Virus record (IMG/VR): IMGVR_UViG_3300020419_001178
Span: 62,001-126,000 of that record
DNA: 64,000 nucleotides
Source of the DNA: a virus
Strand: one strand, 5' to 3'
Every line of letters starts with the position of its first letter. Within the stretch, counting starts at the first letter, position 1. Of this stretch, positions 750-44,303 are shown in pieces. The notes beneath the pieces are model-generated. The model ran no database searches. It was not told the origin of the DNA and was given only the letters and a program-made list of their open reading frames with translations. The position numbers and the translations under genes are program-made.

Positions 750-3700
750 TTGGTAGCTCCACCTTTTCCGCCTTAAAGAAACGTGCTACCAAACTTTCCG
801 CATCATTTAAGGATTGTCCGCTTTCTGTCCATAGTGTACCTGTACGCCTAATGACTTGTATTTTAGCTAAATTTGCCGGTGTAGTGGTCAAAGTAAGCTG
901 ATTTGTAGTGCCATCAACACTAAATTGAGCAGGTGATGTTATATCTGCTTCAGGTGAATCCTGATTTAGTGTAACATCGAACATCTGTATACTATTTTTT
1001 CTTAATCTTTTTCCAGCAACAAAAACTTCAAACTCATTTACTGAGCTAGGAATAAAGGATAATTCAAAAATACTTGTAGAACCGTCACCTACATAGTCTT
1101 CAGTCAATGTAGTATCTGCATATGGTGCTGTTTGCTGTAATCCTTGATTATATACGTCACTACCTGTAAGGTGTACCTCTGGCGCACCTGTTCCAAGTGT
1201 TGCTCTTTGAATTTGTTTCAATACATTACCTTGTTTAATTAAGAATGTTATTCTTTCTCCGTTAATGAATAAGATACCTGGTATTCCGCTATTTTTATCC
1301 GGAGCACTAATTGTAGTAGCATCAACTAGCAAGATTTGTTTATCTGTGACTTTTAAATCTTCAGCAAGTTTCAACGGAGCAACATCACCTAATCTTTTAT
1401 AGATATTTCTATTTAATATATCCTTAAATTGACTAAAGCCAAATTTAGGTGCTATAGGTCCATCTGAACTGTATTGTATTACTTCTACTACATCGTTGTC
1501 TGATAAAATACCTTCATACTTAACAAAGTTTTTATCATCTGTCAAGTAGTAGTCAACACTAGGAGTTTGTAGTTCTCCGTTAACAATAAACCAAATATAT
1601 TGAGCATCAATAGCAGGCTTACGTAATTGTACTAATCCTGCCTTTAAGTGATTGTATTGTATATGGTCTTCGCTTCCAACACTTAAGGTTGATCTTGCTA
1701 TGACATCAAAGTTTTGTCTTTCAAAATCCTGAATATCGTGTTTGCTATATGTAGTGATTTTTACTGTTTCTCCAATAGTAGGCGCAACATCTAGTTTCAG
1801 CACACCTGGTGTTTCTACCCAAGTATTTTGATTGTTAATTACTTCAACTGCTCCAAAAGCATATTCACCATCTGTTCTAATATACACTTCTAAAATATCG
1901 CCTGGTTGTCCTATTCCAGGTTCAAGTATAATACTACTATTAGCTGGACGTATATTAAATTCTGTAGCAATTTTTAATTCAGTTCCGTTTAATGTTGCTA
2001 ATACATTTGAGTTATCAAAACTTCCAATTGGTGTCTGCCAAATTTCTAAGAAATATTCTGACACACCAGTTTGTACTGTGTATTGCTGATTGTATCCAGC
2101 GTTAAGTATTTTATTACCTACTTGAACTACAACATTATGCGTATGAGGAATAGAAGAGTAAGGTGTTTTTTCTAATGTAAAGTTAACCGTACTTCCGTCT
2201 CCTGTAAATTCTTGTGTTTCTATTTTACTGTAGCTTTGTACCTTATCATATACAGCAAAATTAATAACGCTTCCGTCTCTAGGCGCTTGACCAAATACTA
2301 TCACTGCTTTTGTATCTTGTACTGAACTATCTTCACTTGCTACTAATACAGAATCTACTTCTTTTCCATTCACAGTAGCAATGTAATCTAATTTCGTAGT
2401 CCAATGAGCTTTTGTTCTAAACTGTGTTGTACATCCATCACCTATAAATTCATCGAACTCAACTACGCTTTCACCATTACCGCTTACACTAATTAAATTT
2501 ACAGCAGTACCGTTACTAGGAGCAGTGGTAAATCTTACTTTCTTATTTTTATAATCTACAGTATATGAAGTAGGAGATTGAATTACTTTATTCAATCTAA
2601 TATATAATCCATTTTCACTTTGTGGCTGTATTCCAAATCCAAATTCTGTCTGTATACCATCTGCGTTGTAACAATTACTACTTAATAAACTACCACCTTT
2701 ATCTGGTCTATGAAATACTTTGATGTCCACAGTATCAAGTACCTGTCCAGGAACTTGTTCTTCAGGTCCTTTTGAAGTTGTAGGAGTAACAAAACCGTCA
2801 CCATCAATTATTATTTCTTCCGGATTTATTCCTTTAGCTGTACTAAACTGTAAATCACCACCACTTAAAATTGTATCATAAGATCTAGGATCAGGTAAGA
2901 AAGATCCATCTGATGTTGTTTTTCTAAATACTACAACATCGTTAGCAACAAATTTTTGTATATCATTTGTAATTGTAATTGTTGTTTGTGTTCCGTCACC
3001 TGTGATACTCTGTAAAACAGCATTTACATTATTTTGTGACGCTGTGCCAAAATTAGGATCATCTATTCTTTTTCCATTTAGGTAAACATTATATACTGCT
3101 CCGTTTTCTAAAGGTTTACTTAAAGTAAATACCTCAGTGCTACCATCCATTTGAAATATCTCGTCATCAAATGTAGTATCAAATGTGTCATAGGTTGTTG
3201 TAAACCATCCATCTGAATCCCAACCTGTACCTGTTCCAAAACTATAACTGCTTACTTCTACTCCACCGTAGTCTACACCGTCTAAGATTTGCCCTAAATC
3301 ATTTCCATACATACCTGTTACAGGATTATAGTAAAAATTAATTCTATCTTGTGCTTGTAATAATTCTGCTGACTTGTTATATTTTATTACAACACTTTTA
3401 CTTGCTGTTTGAGGTTCAGTAAAGAATATTCTTCCATACTTTCTCAAATAACCTTTTGTACTATCTGATTTATTTTCAAATGTATATTCGCTTCTCAAAG
3501 CTTCTAGCCCATCAACTGTAACAATTATTTGTGTGTTTTTAAGTTGCATTGGCCATTTCAAATCAAATATCTGCTGATTAGATCCAGTTGTAAATGTTTC
3601 AGTAGTAGATAGTTGTGTAAACAAATATGTTCCTGTAACTCTATCAAATTTACATCTTAAATGAGTAGATCTAGCTTTACCTCCACCTAGTACAGGACTT

Positions 3701-6700
3701 AATCTAGCTACAGTCCCGCCATCTTGTAAAGATCCTTCTAAAGTAATTGTTGGTTGTGAAAGATACCCTGATCCAGTATTTGTTACTTTTACAGCATTAA
3801 TTTTTCCATCACCGCCTAAAAATGCTACAGCTTTAGCTCCACTTCCTCCGCCGCCGGTAATTTTGATTATAGGAGCATCTAAGTATCCTGATCCTGTATC
3901 TGCTATGTTAAGACTTTGTAATTCAAATCCTACATTTTCTGCCCAATGCTTACTAGGATACTTTGTAATTTCTGAAAATCCAGAAACAATCTCATCATTT
4001 ACTACCTGTACGGATTGAGGAGTAATCTTTCCATCAGCTTCGTTATAAACAGTTGGTAGATCAAAGTCTGTGACCACAGTTGAAGTCGGATCTGTTTTTT
4101 CATATGAACTTAAATATTCTCTTACTTTGGTTCTATAAGGCTTCACTTCATTTATATAAGATTCGTAACTTGGAAGACTATCATTTTTAAAAGTAATACG
4201 TTGCTCTAATTCTCCAACGTTGTGTTTTGCTTTTATAAAGCTAGTTTTAAAAGCCCAGTCTACTGCTGGTTGTTCAGCAAATACATAACGTAAAGAAGCA
4301 AAGAAACATTCATTCCAATTTTTTAATAAATCTGCTACGAATATTTTATTTTCTAGTATGCCAATTATTAATCGCATCTCAGCAACAGGTTCTGTGTCGT
4401 AAAATATTTTGTCAAAACCGCTTCCGTCATAAGCAATATTTTCATTTGACACATCGTACAATGAATTTTTAAATTCTATGGTTCCGTTTTGCCTACCTAT
4501 AGTTTTGTAGTTTACTGTATAATCTTCTGTATCTTGATCATCTTCTTTTTCTAGTAATAACCATCCACCGGTTCCTACATTGTTAATTTTTACAACATCA
4601 CCTATTTTATCTTCAAGTCCATATAATTGGTAACTACTTGAAATAGTATAATTTATAGGTGTAAAAATATTGTAATTAGTTTCGTACCAATCTATATACT
4701 GCCAATAAGCATTTACATCATATGCTTGTGTAAGTGTTCTTAACCATTCTGTTCCGTCCCAAGCAAATACAGCCCATTTACCGCCTACAGTTTCATCTGT
4801 CTTAACTAATACGCTAAACTTTCTTACTTCGATAGTAGGTGCTACGTAGTTTGTTCCTCCGTTAATAATGTTTACAGAAGCAATACTACCATCAGCTCCT
4901 AGAACAAAACGTAACTCTGCTCCTGTTCCTGTAGTATCTGTTACTTTATATGTTGGAGGATTTATGTACCCTTTTCCAGCATCATTTATAAGAACATTTA
5001 TAATAGTTCCGTTTTCAATTTCTAATGTAAGATTAGCTTGTTTGACGTTAGCAACACTAATAAAACCTAATTCCGCAAAAGTATCAGATGTAGTGTCGTA
5101 AGTTCCTGAAACATTAGATGGTCTTGGATCAATTTGTGTAAGTCCTGATAGATCTTTGTTATCAACGATAAGTTGTGATTTGAGTATTTTGTTTACTCTT
5201 TCAATGAACTGTTTTCTAGCTTCTGTTCTGTTTACAAACCAACTTTGTCTTGGATCGTTTAAGTTTCCATATCTCTGTCTAATAGGCAAATCAACATCTG
5301 GAACTGGTCTATCGTTAACGTCAAATCCGACCAAACTGTCAATCCATTTTTGTTTAATAGTGTTGTTAGGAATACTAGTTTCTAATCCATCGGAAATAAT
5401 TTGATATTCATTATGAACGTTTTGTTCTTGGTTATCAATTGTCCACCAATTAAATGTTATTCCTACATCTTTATCTTTTATAAGACTAGCACAATTATAT
5501 AAAGAAAATCTATTATTTCCTAAAGGTGCTACAAATCTCACACCCTGTTGTGCCGGACTAGATATTAATCTAGCAACATCGAATGCCGAAGCTTTTCTTG
5601 TTGTATCAGTTGGCAATGTTGCTTTGTCTTTTACCCAATAATAATATTTGTTAGAAAATGTTTGTGAAGCACTATCATATAACCTTCTAGAACTATATGC
5701 TGTATCTCCGTATTTTGTAGTGCCACTTATTCCATCTGTGAGTCCTGCTTCTGTACCTGTCTGTGCGTCCCATTCGCTTGGTAATAATGTGCTTTCTACC
5801 CATTCATATACGTCTACAGTAGTACCTGAGAATAGTGTGTTGAAATTAGCAGTAGATTCTAATATGTCTCCTTGATGATGATTGATAAATCTAGCACTTC
5901 CGATATCCCACCAAATTTTTCCAACCCATTTTTCTGCTGTATAATCCAACGTATCAAGCGAAGTTCCTGTTGCTGTGCTAACACTATATTTCGCAGGATC
6001 ATAAGAAACTTTGAAAGTAATTTCCTGTTCAGCTGTTCCGGCTATTTTTCCTTGTAATGGATCTATGTAATCTAAATAAGTTACTAAACTATTAGTTGTT
6101 TTGTCAAAAAGATTAATACCTTTGAGTTTGCTTACATCAATTGGAATAATTGGTTGTCTACCAACTGACCAAGAAGTAGCATTGACCGGTTTTCTATATT
6201 CAGCAACAAGTCCTTTATCAATAGTATTATTAGAAAGTATTTGTTGTTTAGGTAAACCTAAATATACATGATTATCCTTGACCACCATAATACTTCCAAA
6301 GTCTTGTGTATCTTTATCGTAAGCAAAATCCTGTCCATATAATAATGTATCGTTTACTGTTTCATAAATGCTTACTAATCCGCTGTCGTTATCAATAACT
6401 TTAAATGGTGTGTTGCCATTATCAAAAATTGTTGTGTCTTTATCTAACGTAGTAACTCTTTCAAGGTCCCCACCTCTTGAAGCTATAGCTAGTGTATTAC
6501 CATCAAAGTCAAGTTTGCTTCCAAATCTTGTGTTAGAAGTTCTATCAATAGGTCTTAGTGTTTGATTTAAAGCAAAGTTACCGTCTGTACCTTGAATGTA
6601 AATATAAACTGCTCCGCCTCTAATATCTCTTGTGCTATTTTCAGGAGCACCTACAGCAATCTTCTTTCCATCATTTGAAATTGCTATTGATTGTCCCCAA

Positions 6701-26885: not shown

Positions 26886-26914
26886 TTGACAAAATTAACA
26901 GAGTATATTATAAT
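26886..26914 (+). promoter_or_regulatory. Consensus sigma-70 promoter for gp55
   Basis: TTGACA at 26886-26891 and TATAAT at 26909-26914 with exactly 17 bases between them, a perfect bacterial housekeeping promoter. The gp55 start codon is 23 bases after the -10 box, with GGAGAA as ribosome site. It lies in the 78-base divergent region between the baseplate block and gp55. Confidence 0.9.
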
Positions 26915-42020: not shown

Positions 42021-43208
42021 ATGTCAGAACTACTAGAAAGTCGCTGGCAGGATACGAAAACTGCACTTCTAGAAGGCCTCGAAGGCAATAAAAAGTCAGT
42101 TATGGGTGTTACATTAGAAAACACTCGTAAGTACTTGGCTGAGGCCGCAACAGCAGGTGCATCTAGTGCAGGCAACGTTGCTACACTAAACAGAGTGATC
42201 CTTCCAGTAATAAGAAGGGTTATGCCTACGGTTATCGCTAACGAATTAGTTGGTGTACAACCTATGACAGGCCCTGTGGGACAAATCCACACACTAAGAG
42301 TAAGATATGCTGACAGTATGGCATCATCTGCAACAGCTACTACAGCAGGCGAAGAGGCATTAAGCCCATTCAAAATTGCTGAGGGCTATTCAGGTGCTGG
42401 CGATGCGGCTACTTACAACGACAAAACAGCTAACACAACAGCTTCTTTAGAAGGTGTAGCTGGTAAGAGATTGTCAATTCAGATCTTAAAGCAAACAGTC
42501 GAAGCAAAAACCAGAAAGCTATCAGCTAGATGGACTTTTGAAGCGGCTCAAGATGCTCAAGCTCAACAAGGTATTGATATCGAAGCAGAAATTATGGCGG
42601 CATTGGCGCAAGAAATTACTGCTGAAATTGACCAAGAGATTCTTTCATCTCTACGTACTTTGGCTGGAACAGTCGAAACTTACGATCAGGCGGCGGTAAG
42701 CGGTACAGCAACTTTCGTTGGTGACGAACATGCGGCATTAGCTGTTCAAATCAACAGAGTGGCAAACTTAATTGCGGCTAGAACAAGACGTGGTGCTGGT
42801 AACTACGCAGTGGTATCACCATTTGCGTTAACATTACTACAGTCTGCTACAACTTCAGCGTTTGCAAGAACAACTGAAGGTACTTTTGAAGCTCCAACTA
42901 ACACTAAAATGGTTGGTACACTTAACGGTGCGATGAAAGTATACGTAGACGCTTATGCGGCGGATAGTACAGAAGTATTGATTGGATACAAAGGTTCAAG
43001 TGAATCTGATGCTCCAGCATTCTACTGTCCATACATTCCGTTAATGTCAAGTGGCGTTGTATTAGATCCAAGCACATTTGAACCAGTAGTGTCATTTATG
43101 ACAAGATATGGTTACATTGAGCTATCTAATGTGGCATCATCACTTGGTAACGCGGCTGATTACCTTGGCGCAGTAGCAATTACTAACGGCAACGTATCAT
43201 TTAGCTAA
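42021..43208 (+). CDS. 23: Major capsid protein gp23
   Basis: A 395-residue HK97-fold capsid protein of the gp23 family. Recognised segments are ARKxx-type helix ILPVIRRVMPTVIANELVGV, QPMTGPVGQIHTLRVRY (residues about 75-95), VEAKTRKLSARWTFEAAQD (about 157-175) and YIELSNVASSLG near the end. It is well short of T4 gp23 (521). A likely gp21 cleavage site is LAE after residue 41 (YLAE followed by AATAG), fitting L/I-x-E. It has a strong AAGGAG site and is followed by an intrinsic terminator at 43230, so high expression and defined transcript end are likely. Confidence 0.96.
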   Translation: MSELLESRWQDTKTALLEGLEGNKKSVMGVTLENTRKYLAEAATAGASSAGNVATLNRVILPVIRRVMPTVIANELVGVQPMTGPVGQIHTLRVRYADSMASSATATTAGEEALSPFKIAEGYSGAGDAATYNDKTANTTASLEGVAGKRLSIQILKQTVEAKTRKLSARWTFEAAQDAQAQQGIDIEAEIMAALAQEITAEIDQEILSSLRTLAGTVETYDQAAVSGTATFVGDEHAALAVQINRVANLIAARTRRGAGNYAVVSPFALTLLQSATTSAFARTTEGTFEAPTNTKMVGTLNGAMKVYVDAYAADSTEVLIGYKGSSESDAPAFYCPYIPLMSSGVVLDPSTFEPVVSFMTRYGYIELSNVASSLGNAADYLGAVAITNGNVSFS

Positions 43209-43229: not shown

Positions 43230-43258
43230 AAAAGGGCGGCTTATGTCGCCCTTTTTTT
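43230..43258 (+). terminator. Intrinsic terminator after gp23
   Basis: AAAGGGCG pairs with CGCCCTTT, extended by A30-T55 and by an inner G-U and C-G pair that leave a TTAT loop, followed by a run of seven T. It begins 22 bases after the gp23 stop. A clear Rho-independent terminator. Confidence 0.92.
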
Positions 43259-43291: not shown

Positions 43292-43320
43292 TTGACAAAT
43301 GCTTTTTTCTCTGTTATATT
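43292..43320 (+). promoter_or_regulatory. Sigma-70 promoter for the structured RNA
   Basis: TTGACA (43292-43297), 17 bases, TATATT (43315-43320), five of six in the -10 box. It lies directly after the gp23 terminator, so it must drive a separate transcript starting near 43327. Confidence 0.85.
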
Positions 43321-43326
43321 GTATAC

Positions 43327-43583
43327 ATAAGCTAGAAACTTGTAGCTAGAGTTTTTAAATAGTGCAAGGAAGAGGCGTTTACCAGAGCGTCGAACTTGAC
43401 TAGTTAGGGGTGGTACCCAGGCTTGGTAGTAGAAATACGCTGAGTCACATCGCTCTCCCGAGCGGAACTAGGTTCCCTGGTTATCAGAATGGCATCTGTG
43501 GCGAGGGGTTGTAGGTATAACCGAGTCCTACCTATTATTGCTTATTTTAAAAGGTGTGCAAGGAAACTTGTATACCTTTTTCC
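43327..43583 (+). ncRNA. Independent structured small RNA, about 257 nt, family unknown
   Basis: Between a consensus-like promoter and an excellent intrinsic terminator there is no open frame of note, and base composition is about 50% G+C, well above flanking genes. Hairpins seen directly: AGCTA/TAGCT near 43330-43348; GGCG/CGTC near 43374-43391; CGCTC-TCCC-GAGCG near 43451-43464; GGAAC-TAG-GTTCC near 43464-43476; GTAGG/CCTAC near 43511-43531. Two 10-base sequences occur twice: GAAACTTGTA at 43335 and 43563, and GTGCAAGGAA at 43362 and 43556, so the 5' end contains copies of both terminator arms. No tRNA, tmRNA, 6S or RNase P signature was found. A regulatory or host-targeting role is possible; function is unknown. 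Confidence 0.8.
43549..43583 (+). terminator. Strong intrinsic terminator of the structured RNA
   Basis: A 14-bp stem including two G-U pairs (AAAAGGTGTGCAAG with CTTGTATACCTTTT), closed by a GAAA tetraloop and followed by more T. The two G-U pairs fix the direction as plus strand. Confidence 0.92.
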
Positions 43584-43589
43584 TTTTGT

Positions 43590-43597
43590 GATAAATA
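43590..43597 (+). promoter_or_regulatory. Late promoter GATAAATA
   Basis: GATAAATA, one mismatch to consensus, directly after the RNA terminator and 89 bases before the next gene. It is the likely late start for the structural gene at 43686. Confidence 0.65.
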
Positions 43598-43631
43598 CAA
43601 TGTCTAAGAGAGAACCTCTAAGATGAGGACT

Positions 43632-43669
43632 TATGCTGTTTAACCCACAGCGTAGACCTAGAACGTCTA
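43632..43669 (+). promoter_or_regulatory. Structured leader of the 43686 gene
   Basis: TATGCTGT (43632-43639) pairs with ACAGCGTA (43647-43654), eight pairs including one G-U. An overlapping alternative stem is TAGAC (43653-43657) with GTCTA (43665-43669). The two share two bases, so they may exclude each other. The AAGGAG ribosome site (43674) follows just after. Confidence 0.5.
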
Positions 43670-43685
43670 ACATAAGGAGAAAAAA

Positions 43686-44303
43686 ATGGGAAGACCTATT
43701 AATAAAAAGCACATTGGTGATGGAGCAGGTAAAATCCAAGTAACTGCGGTTAAATTCGCGGCTGGTGGAGAAATTACTACTGAGTCACATATTGTGTCAC
43801 AACGATCAACAAGAAAATTCATCGTTACTGATGGAACTAAAACAGAAACTTGTACACTTGTTAACAAATCAATCGGCGGCTTAGGTGCTAGTGAATTCTG
43901 CATCAACGTAACTGACAGTGATGGTGTTACAAAACAAGTTACCAAGTTAATGAACAGAAAAATGCAACTTGAAGGTGCTTCTAACCATAAATGGGCTAGA
44001 TCATCAACAGGTACATCTGAAGCAATTGAAAAAGTTATTTCAGGTGCTACAGCGGCAAATCCATGTGTTATTACAGCAACTGGACACGGCTTCAGCAACG
44101 GAGATAAAGTATCTATCCGTGGCGTAGTTGGAATGGTTGAGCTAAACACTGAAACTGCTTACACAGTAGCTGGTAAGACAACTAACAACTTCCAATTATC
44201 GGGTGTTAATAGTTCAGGCTTTACAGCATACGGTTCAGGTGGTGTAGTTACTAAAGCGGCGGCTGAAAGCGGCGGCATTGTAGTTGACGCACAGGCATCG
44301 TAA
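43686..44303 (+). CDS. Structural protein with E1-FCCH-like domain, 205 aa
   Basis: The N-terminal about 110 residues form a beta-rich domain with many Lys/Thr (MGRPINKKHIGDGAGKIQVT, KLMNRKMQLEG). Residues about 120-195 match the small domain known from ubiquitin-activating enzymes and often found in phage virion proteins: NPCVITATGHGFSNGDKVSI, VVGMVELNTETAYTV, NNFQLSGVNSSGFTAY. It has a strong AAGGAG site and follows gp23 and the RNA locus, so it could be an abundant capsid or tail surface protein. The domain assignment is by pattern; the function is not known. Confidence 0.75.
   Translation: MGRPINKKHIGDGAGKIQVTAVKFAAGGEITTESHIVSQRSTRKFIVTDGTKTETCTLVNKSIGGLGASEFCINVTDSDGVTKQVTKLMNRKMQLEGASNHKWARSSTGTSEAIEKVISGATAANPCVITATGHGFSNGDKVSIRGVVGMVELNTETAYTVAGKTTNNFQLSGVNSSGFTAYGSGGVVTKAAAESGGIVVDAQAS

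Follow-up and report, generated by a model that had tools for sequence, protein, structure and literature searches.

manA RNAs were described by Weinberg et al. in 2010, with examples from marine metagenomes, T4-like cyanophages and two gammaproteobacteria; their status as RNA and their cis-regulatory action were rated certain, and a riboswitch function probable (PMC2864571). The same work marked a pseudoknot in their structure as uncertain (PMC2864571), and the structure was corrected in Rfam 14 (PMC7779021). The Rfam entry, RF01745, is typed Cis-reg, and the cis-regulatory label has been repeated in later publications (PMC9964418, PMC10665884, PMC7657543). A survey of pelagimyophages, made with a different tool, reported no riboswitches in such phages (PMC7029224). 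In the literature that we searched, which covered manA, cyanophage transcriptomes and freshwater-2, we found no functional study of manA.

We analysed a window of 64,000 nucleotides, the whole stretch of DNA considered here, taken from a 145,741-base virus record of a marine T4-like phage that contains one manA copy. The presence of a manA-family RNA in this window is close to certain from its full-length model match and its covariation: RF01745 matches 43334-43541 across the full model (1-192) with 60.3 bits, against a cut-off of 55.2, and an E-value of 7e-13. Other Rfam families gave only chance-level matches to the RNA. An earlier, sequence-only reading of this DNA had described an autonomous structured small RNA consisting of a promoter, a structured segment and a terminator at 43292-43583, and all three are present. 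It did not recognise the RNA, which proves to belong to a known family, albeit to a divergent branch of it. The features of the locus, in window positions, are as follows.

42021-43208, plus strand: gp23 major capsid gene (395 aa), the upstream neighbour; open reading frame, PHROG 138 major head protein, E 4e-97.
About 43230-43258, plus strand: intrinsic terminator of gp23, AAAAGGGCGGC-TTAT-GTCGCCCTTTT then TTT; read from the sequence.
43292-43320, plus strand: sigma70-type promoter with extended -10, TTGACA-17-TATATT; promoter scan and conservation.
43327-43545, plus strand: manA-family RNA body, P0 to P8; RF01745 match and model R1 (below).
43328-43332, plus strand: 5′ strand of P0, pairing with 43540-43544 and extendable by 43327/43545; 4/5 pairs change on both sides.
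43333-43357, plus strand: P1, the 5′ hairpin; 7/8 pairs covary.
43359-43362, plus strand: 5′ strand of P2, the core-closing helix, pairing with 43532-43535; 100% of cells paired.
43365-43398, plus strand: P3 helix with inner stem; covariation alignment, helices 4 and 5.
43400-43471, plus strand: P4, 43400-43405 with 43466-43471; 6/6 pairs covary, 99% of cells paired.
43407-43418, 43420-43446 and 43450-43465, plus strand: P4a, P5 and P6, inside P4; covariation alignment.
43410-43415, plus strand: P4a loop, GUGGUA, with a predicted kissing contact to the P6 loop (43456-43459); loop complementarity.
43475-43508, plus strand: P7 hairpin; 4/4 pairs covary.
43511-43531, plus strand: P8 hairpin, GUAGG-...-CCUAC; 100% of cells paired, 2/5 pairs covary.
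43540-43544, plus strand: 3′ strand of P0; covariation.
43549-43580, plus strand: intrinsic terminator with 14-bp stem, GAAA loop and T-rich tail to about 43587; terminator scan.
43590-43597, plus strand: T4-late-promoter-like GATAAATA, one of three [GT]ATAAATA in the window.
43614-43688, plus strand: freshwater-2 (RF02980)-like leader belonging to the next gene and distinct from the manA RNA; 47.4 bits, cut-off 49.9.
43686-44303, plus strand: next gene, encoding a 205-aa protein beginning MGRPINKK; open reading frame, weak PHROG 584 (tail) match.

Relatives of this RNA were gathered by pattern scans of viral contigs and fall into two branches, with 169 distinct loci comprising 81 of the window type and 88 of the cyanophage type. 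The cyanophage branch scores up to 196 bits with RF01745, while the window's branch mostly scores 36 to 61 bits and is often under the cut-off or missed entirely. We therefore built a covariance model, R1, from 33 window-type RNAs with no cyanophage manA among them. R1 scores the window RNA at 235 bits, the window being part of its training set, and picks up window-type RNAs that the Rfam model misses. It also recovers cyanophage manA RNAs at E-values of 7e-15 to 6e-8, and because these were unseen in training, the two branches can be regarded as one family. On these model matches, we class the window RNA as a divergent branch of RF01745 and not as a new family. The Rfam cut-off misses most of this non-cyanophage branch.

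Among cultured phages, the nearest match by DNA was pelagiphage Mosig EXVC030M, whose own manA copy scores 64.0 bits. The window RNA is 97.3% identical to that of locus L157, where gp23 is 77% identical and the flanks about 65%, which strong selection could explain, as could modular transfer of the RNA. A search of GTDB genomes, using the strict window-type pattern only, found two contigs only, both of them phage gp23 regions within a single Neomarinimicrobiota MAG. These contigs (L329 and L330; 153 kb and 335 kb; Neomarinimicrobiota MAG) hold T4-like gp23 regions with a manA RNA and the same gp23 protein, and are likely to be binned or chimeric phage sequence. One 4,756-base contig (L029, record G027) carries two manA copies, at 119-315 and 3636-3836, and is the sole such record seen. 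Small hypothetical proteins overlap the manA RNA in the deposited annotations of P-HM1 (L316, for example PHM1_121), P-SSM4 (L319, PSSM4_169.1), P-HM2 (L325, PHM2_011/012) and S-SSM5 (L326, SSSM5_127); these are probably not genes.

The structured segment is well supported by both folding and comparison. With its terminator included, the window RNA has a minimum free energy of -90.2 kcal/mol, against -69.9 ± 4.8 for shuffled sequences (z -4.26; 0 of 200 shuffles). For an alignment of 33 window-type sequences (A1), RNAalifold predicted 55 pairs, 42 of which show changes on both sides. After the addition of six pairs by hand, 95.7% of cells are paired and both sides change in 45 of 61 pairs, giving a covariation score of 0.51 against 0.17 when shuffled and at most 0.11 with partners slid; the six pairs were picked on the same 33 sequences and are somewhat favoured by the test. 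The conserved structure that the sequence-only reading had expected of relatives is therefore evident. Its description of the segment as lacking a gene also stands, since no open reading frame is kept in position or length over the 33 relatives (the longest varies from 5 to 65 codons), and a peptide gene was rejected. A tRNA or tmRNA was likewise rejected, ARAGORN finding none in the window.

The fold is compact and closed. P0, which lies outside the Rfam manA model, joins the 5′ and 3′ ends of the RNA and covaries, reading UAAGC/GCUUA in the window and AAUGC/GCAUU or AUAGC/GCUAU elsewhere, with 95.8% of cells paired over the 33 sequences. The outer pair of P2 occurs as AU, UA, CG, GC and GU. 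Further, the P4a and P6 loops can form at least three contiguous Watson-Crick pairs in 30 of the 33 sequences. Of 12 distinct P4a/P6 loop pairs, 11 fit; random reassignment of the loops gives 5.3 ± 1.3, and 0 of 10,000 shuffles reach 11. The window is among the three exceptions, with a predicted contact of only 2 bp (loop UCCC). In the cyanophage branch (alignment A2), helix order is identical and P0 is absent.

The host-type promoter has TTGACA at 43292-43297, a 17-nt spacer and TATATT at 43315-43320, thus matching 11 of 12 consensus positions, with a TG one base ahead of the -10 hexamer. There are seven sites with at least 11/12 matches in the 64 kb, and an extended -10 is found only at this one. 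A lone promoter match is weak evidence, since sites with at least 9/12 matches occur at the expected number (13 observed against 13.1 expected in a scanned 5 kb). Perfect 12/12 promoters of this type occur on the plus strand at 26886, 27774 and 39173, each shortly 5′ of an ordinary-looking reading frame. Conservation is more informative. Counting a promoter as at least 10/12 matches within 110 nt upstream, one is present in 75 of 81 window-type loci (93%, against 2.7% of random positions) and in 74 of 88 cyanophage-type loci (84%, against 5.4%); these rates, like those for terminators below, are per locus, and many loci are related to one another. The -10 ends 39-43 nt ahead of the core GUG in 70 of the 75 window-type promoters, and this near-fixed distance places the transcription start at P0. 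In the window, the predicted start at 43327 is 7 nt past the -10 and is the first base of the end-to-end helix; the predicted transcript spans about 43327-43585.

Its length, some 257 nt, agrees with that first proposed, as do the 14-bp GAAA-capped terminator and the insulation from gp23 by a separate hairpin and T run. A hairpin and T run 3′ of gp23 also occur in L157, L020, L329, L330 and other relatives. Terminators occur no more than 90 nt from the 3′ end of the RNA in 53 of 81 window-type loci (65%, against 1.2% of random positions) and in 13 of 88 cyanophage-type loci (15%, against 1.4%). Of the 28 window-type loci lacking one, 23 carry a motif resembling a late promoter ahead of the next gene, and two are followed by a gene on the opposite strand. 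The RNA is thereby set apart from the next gene by a terminator, a late-type motif or strand in 78 of 81 window-type loci, while three could be plain leaders. TAAATA occurs within 150 nt past the terminator in 40 of the 53 loci that have one. The terminators after the RNA are of 31 distinct kinds, and since they vary so freely, we judged a resemblance between the window terminator's loop region and part of the RNA to be coincidence. In the window, GATAAATA, a putative late promoter by analogy with T4, apparently serves the next gene. The freshwater-2-like leader adds another structured RNA to this gap, ahead of the next structural gene, and RF02980 is above its cut-off in 10 relatives. Taken together, the conserved promoters and terminators make it likely that the RNA is its own transcription unit in the window's branch, and with the covariation they support the sequence-only reading's view of an autonomous structured small RNA.

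These arrangements bear on the published interpretation, by which the RNA would be a cis-regulatory leader, probably a riboswitch, controlling the next gene through the terminator at 43549-43580. Besides the Rfam type and the rating of Weinberg et al. (PMC2864571), that interpretation can draw on the cyanophage-type RNAs, often found a few tens of nucleotides ahead of a gene such as gp32 or transaldolase, and on pelagiphage Mosig, where the manA RNA precedes a rubrerythrin gene with no terminator between. However, a riboswitch with an attenuator was rejected: terminator 5′ arms showed as much pairing with the RNA of a different locus (5.94) as with the one they follow (5.87), so there is no antiterminator coupling, and the 31 kinds of terminator are unrelated. 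Nor does the window RNA appear to occupy the 5′ UTR of the next gene, as it has its own promoter and terminator, and the next gene has a separate late-promoter-like motif and a leader of another family. The downstream gene is of no consistent class, falling into 49 protein clusters over 160 loci of both branches, on the opposite strand in nine loci and replaced by a tRNA gene 18-60 nt downstream in six cyanophage-type loci. We consider a leader role in the window unlikely. It is the only role against which these data argue at this locus; those suggested in the sequence-only reading were a regulator of host or phage mRNAs, a protein sponge, a host-defence decoy and a packaged RNA. At some cyanophage-type loci the RNA may act as a leader, because terminators are rarer there and it often lies near the next gene.

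The tRNA gene (Gly, Asn or Tyr) comes immediately after the manA RNA, at 18-22 nt in L011, L033, L041, L075 and L106, and at 60 nt in L025, which suggests that the two may share a stable-RNA transcript. Glutamine riboswitches (glnA, RF01739) lie upstream of the manA RNA at L123:5234-5281, L140:5666-5713 and L221:5003-5050, and also in L043, L061, L218, L232, L253, L268 and L310. Wherever the locus includes gp23, both RNAs share the gap after it; the window has no RF01739 match. Structured RNAs appear to cluster in the DNA that follows gp23, making it a likely hot spot.

A base-pairing sRNA, using an exposed seed to act on mRNAs of host or phage, would also have its own promoter and terminator, a length of about 250 nt and a place in a phage genome, and the RNA does contain conserved unpaired stretches such as GUGCAAGGAAGAG. 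Known sRNAs have one open seed, whereas conservation here extends over the many helices of a compact fold that includes a contact between loops, and few mRNAs are common to hosts ranging from cyanobacteria to SAR11. This explanation is about as improbable as a leader.

More doubtful still is the idea that the RNA serves structurally, is packaged or maintains the genome, its position behind gp23 then reflecting head assembly or packaging. Its appeal lies in gp23 being the commonest upstream gene in both branches, including the cultured cyanophages P-HM1, MED4-213, P-RSM4 and S-SSM5; in metaG-MbCM1 the RNA follows a gene annotated as gp24 precursor. Many loci lie elsewhere, however, with cyanophage RNAs after pstS, regA or a ferredoxin gene, before gp32 or transaldolase, or near talC, and the promoter is of the early and not the late type. 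Of 55 close relatives of gp23 whose flanks extend for 700 nt or more, 18 have the RNA directly after gp23; some lack it there, so not every T4-like phage needs it. That the sequence is non-functional or selfish, with promoter, hairpins and terminator arising by chance, is extremely improbable: a lone promoter or terminator match is near chance level, but covariation over 33 sequences refutes chance, promoter and terminator are conserved, the RNA is 97% identical to that of L157 where gp23 is 77%, and a purely selfish element would have to spread without a phenotype.

We consider it probable that the window encodes a divergent manA-family RNA with its own transcript of some 257 nt, which acts in trans, most likely by binding protein. 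Host RNA polymerase would start at 43327 from the sigma70-type promoter, presumably early in infection, and stop at the terminator at 43549-43587. The RNA would then fold into a closed, compact body in which the ends pair as P0 and two inner loops kiss. We infer a discrete transcript, early timing and action in trans from sequence comparison; early expression is a reasonable inference from a host-type promoter, and trans action follows from the evidence for a separate unit. The RNA would thus not serve as a leader, the next gene having its own putative late-type promoter and leader. Protein binding is our guess, prompted by how compact and closed the fold is and by its retention in phages whose hosts are unrelated. 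The fold is kept in cyanobacterial and SAR11 phages while neighbouring genes change, which makes a protein the most likely partner, perhaps one of T4-like phages themselves or a host machine that cyanobacteria and SAR11 have in common.

We speculate, tentatively and in the knowledge that it may well not hold, that the whole manA family, in T4-like marine phages of cyanobacteria, SAR11 and other hosts, comprises early, host-polymerase-made, trans-acting RNAs that bind and redirect a conserved host or phage machine, which would make it a new class of phage takeover RNA. The family would then not be a riboswitch, and its occasional placement ahead of genes would be incidental. Should the manA RNAs of at least this branch, and perhaps of the whole family, be discrete and trans-acting, a search for a ligand is aimed at the wrong thing. 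A non-coding RNA widespread among abundant phages of the ocean would also become directly testable in cultured systems such as P-HM1 on MED4 and Mosig on HTCC1062.

Several known RNAs offer comparisons. T4 itself has stable RNAs C and D, which are likewise discrete, stable and of unknown function in a T4-like phage; they differ in lying among clustered tRNA genes and in being processed from a tRNA precursor. GOLLD, ROOL and similar ornate RNAs are independently transcribed, highly structured, phage-associated RNAs of unknown function, but are much larger and belong to other families, none of which has an Rfam match in the window. The wcaG, PhotoRC-II and glnA RNAs of cyanophages are also structured RNAs of T4-like marine phages; they form other Rfam families, typed cis-regulatory, with no match in the window. 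The closest likeness is to RF01745 manA itself. The models of the two branches match in both directions, the hairpin order is the same (P1, the core-closing helix, P3, P4 with P4a/P5/P6, P7 and P8), and both occur in T4-like phages, manA in cyanophages. Unlike RF01745 manA, the window's branch has P0, closes its core by UAG/CUA instead of GGGAG/CUCCC, and usually has a separate terminator, and its RNAs would stand alone instead of serving as leaders.
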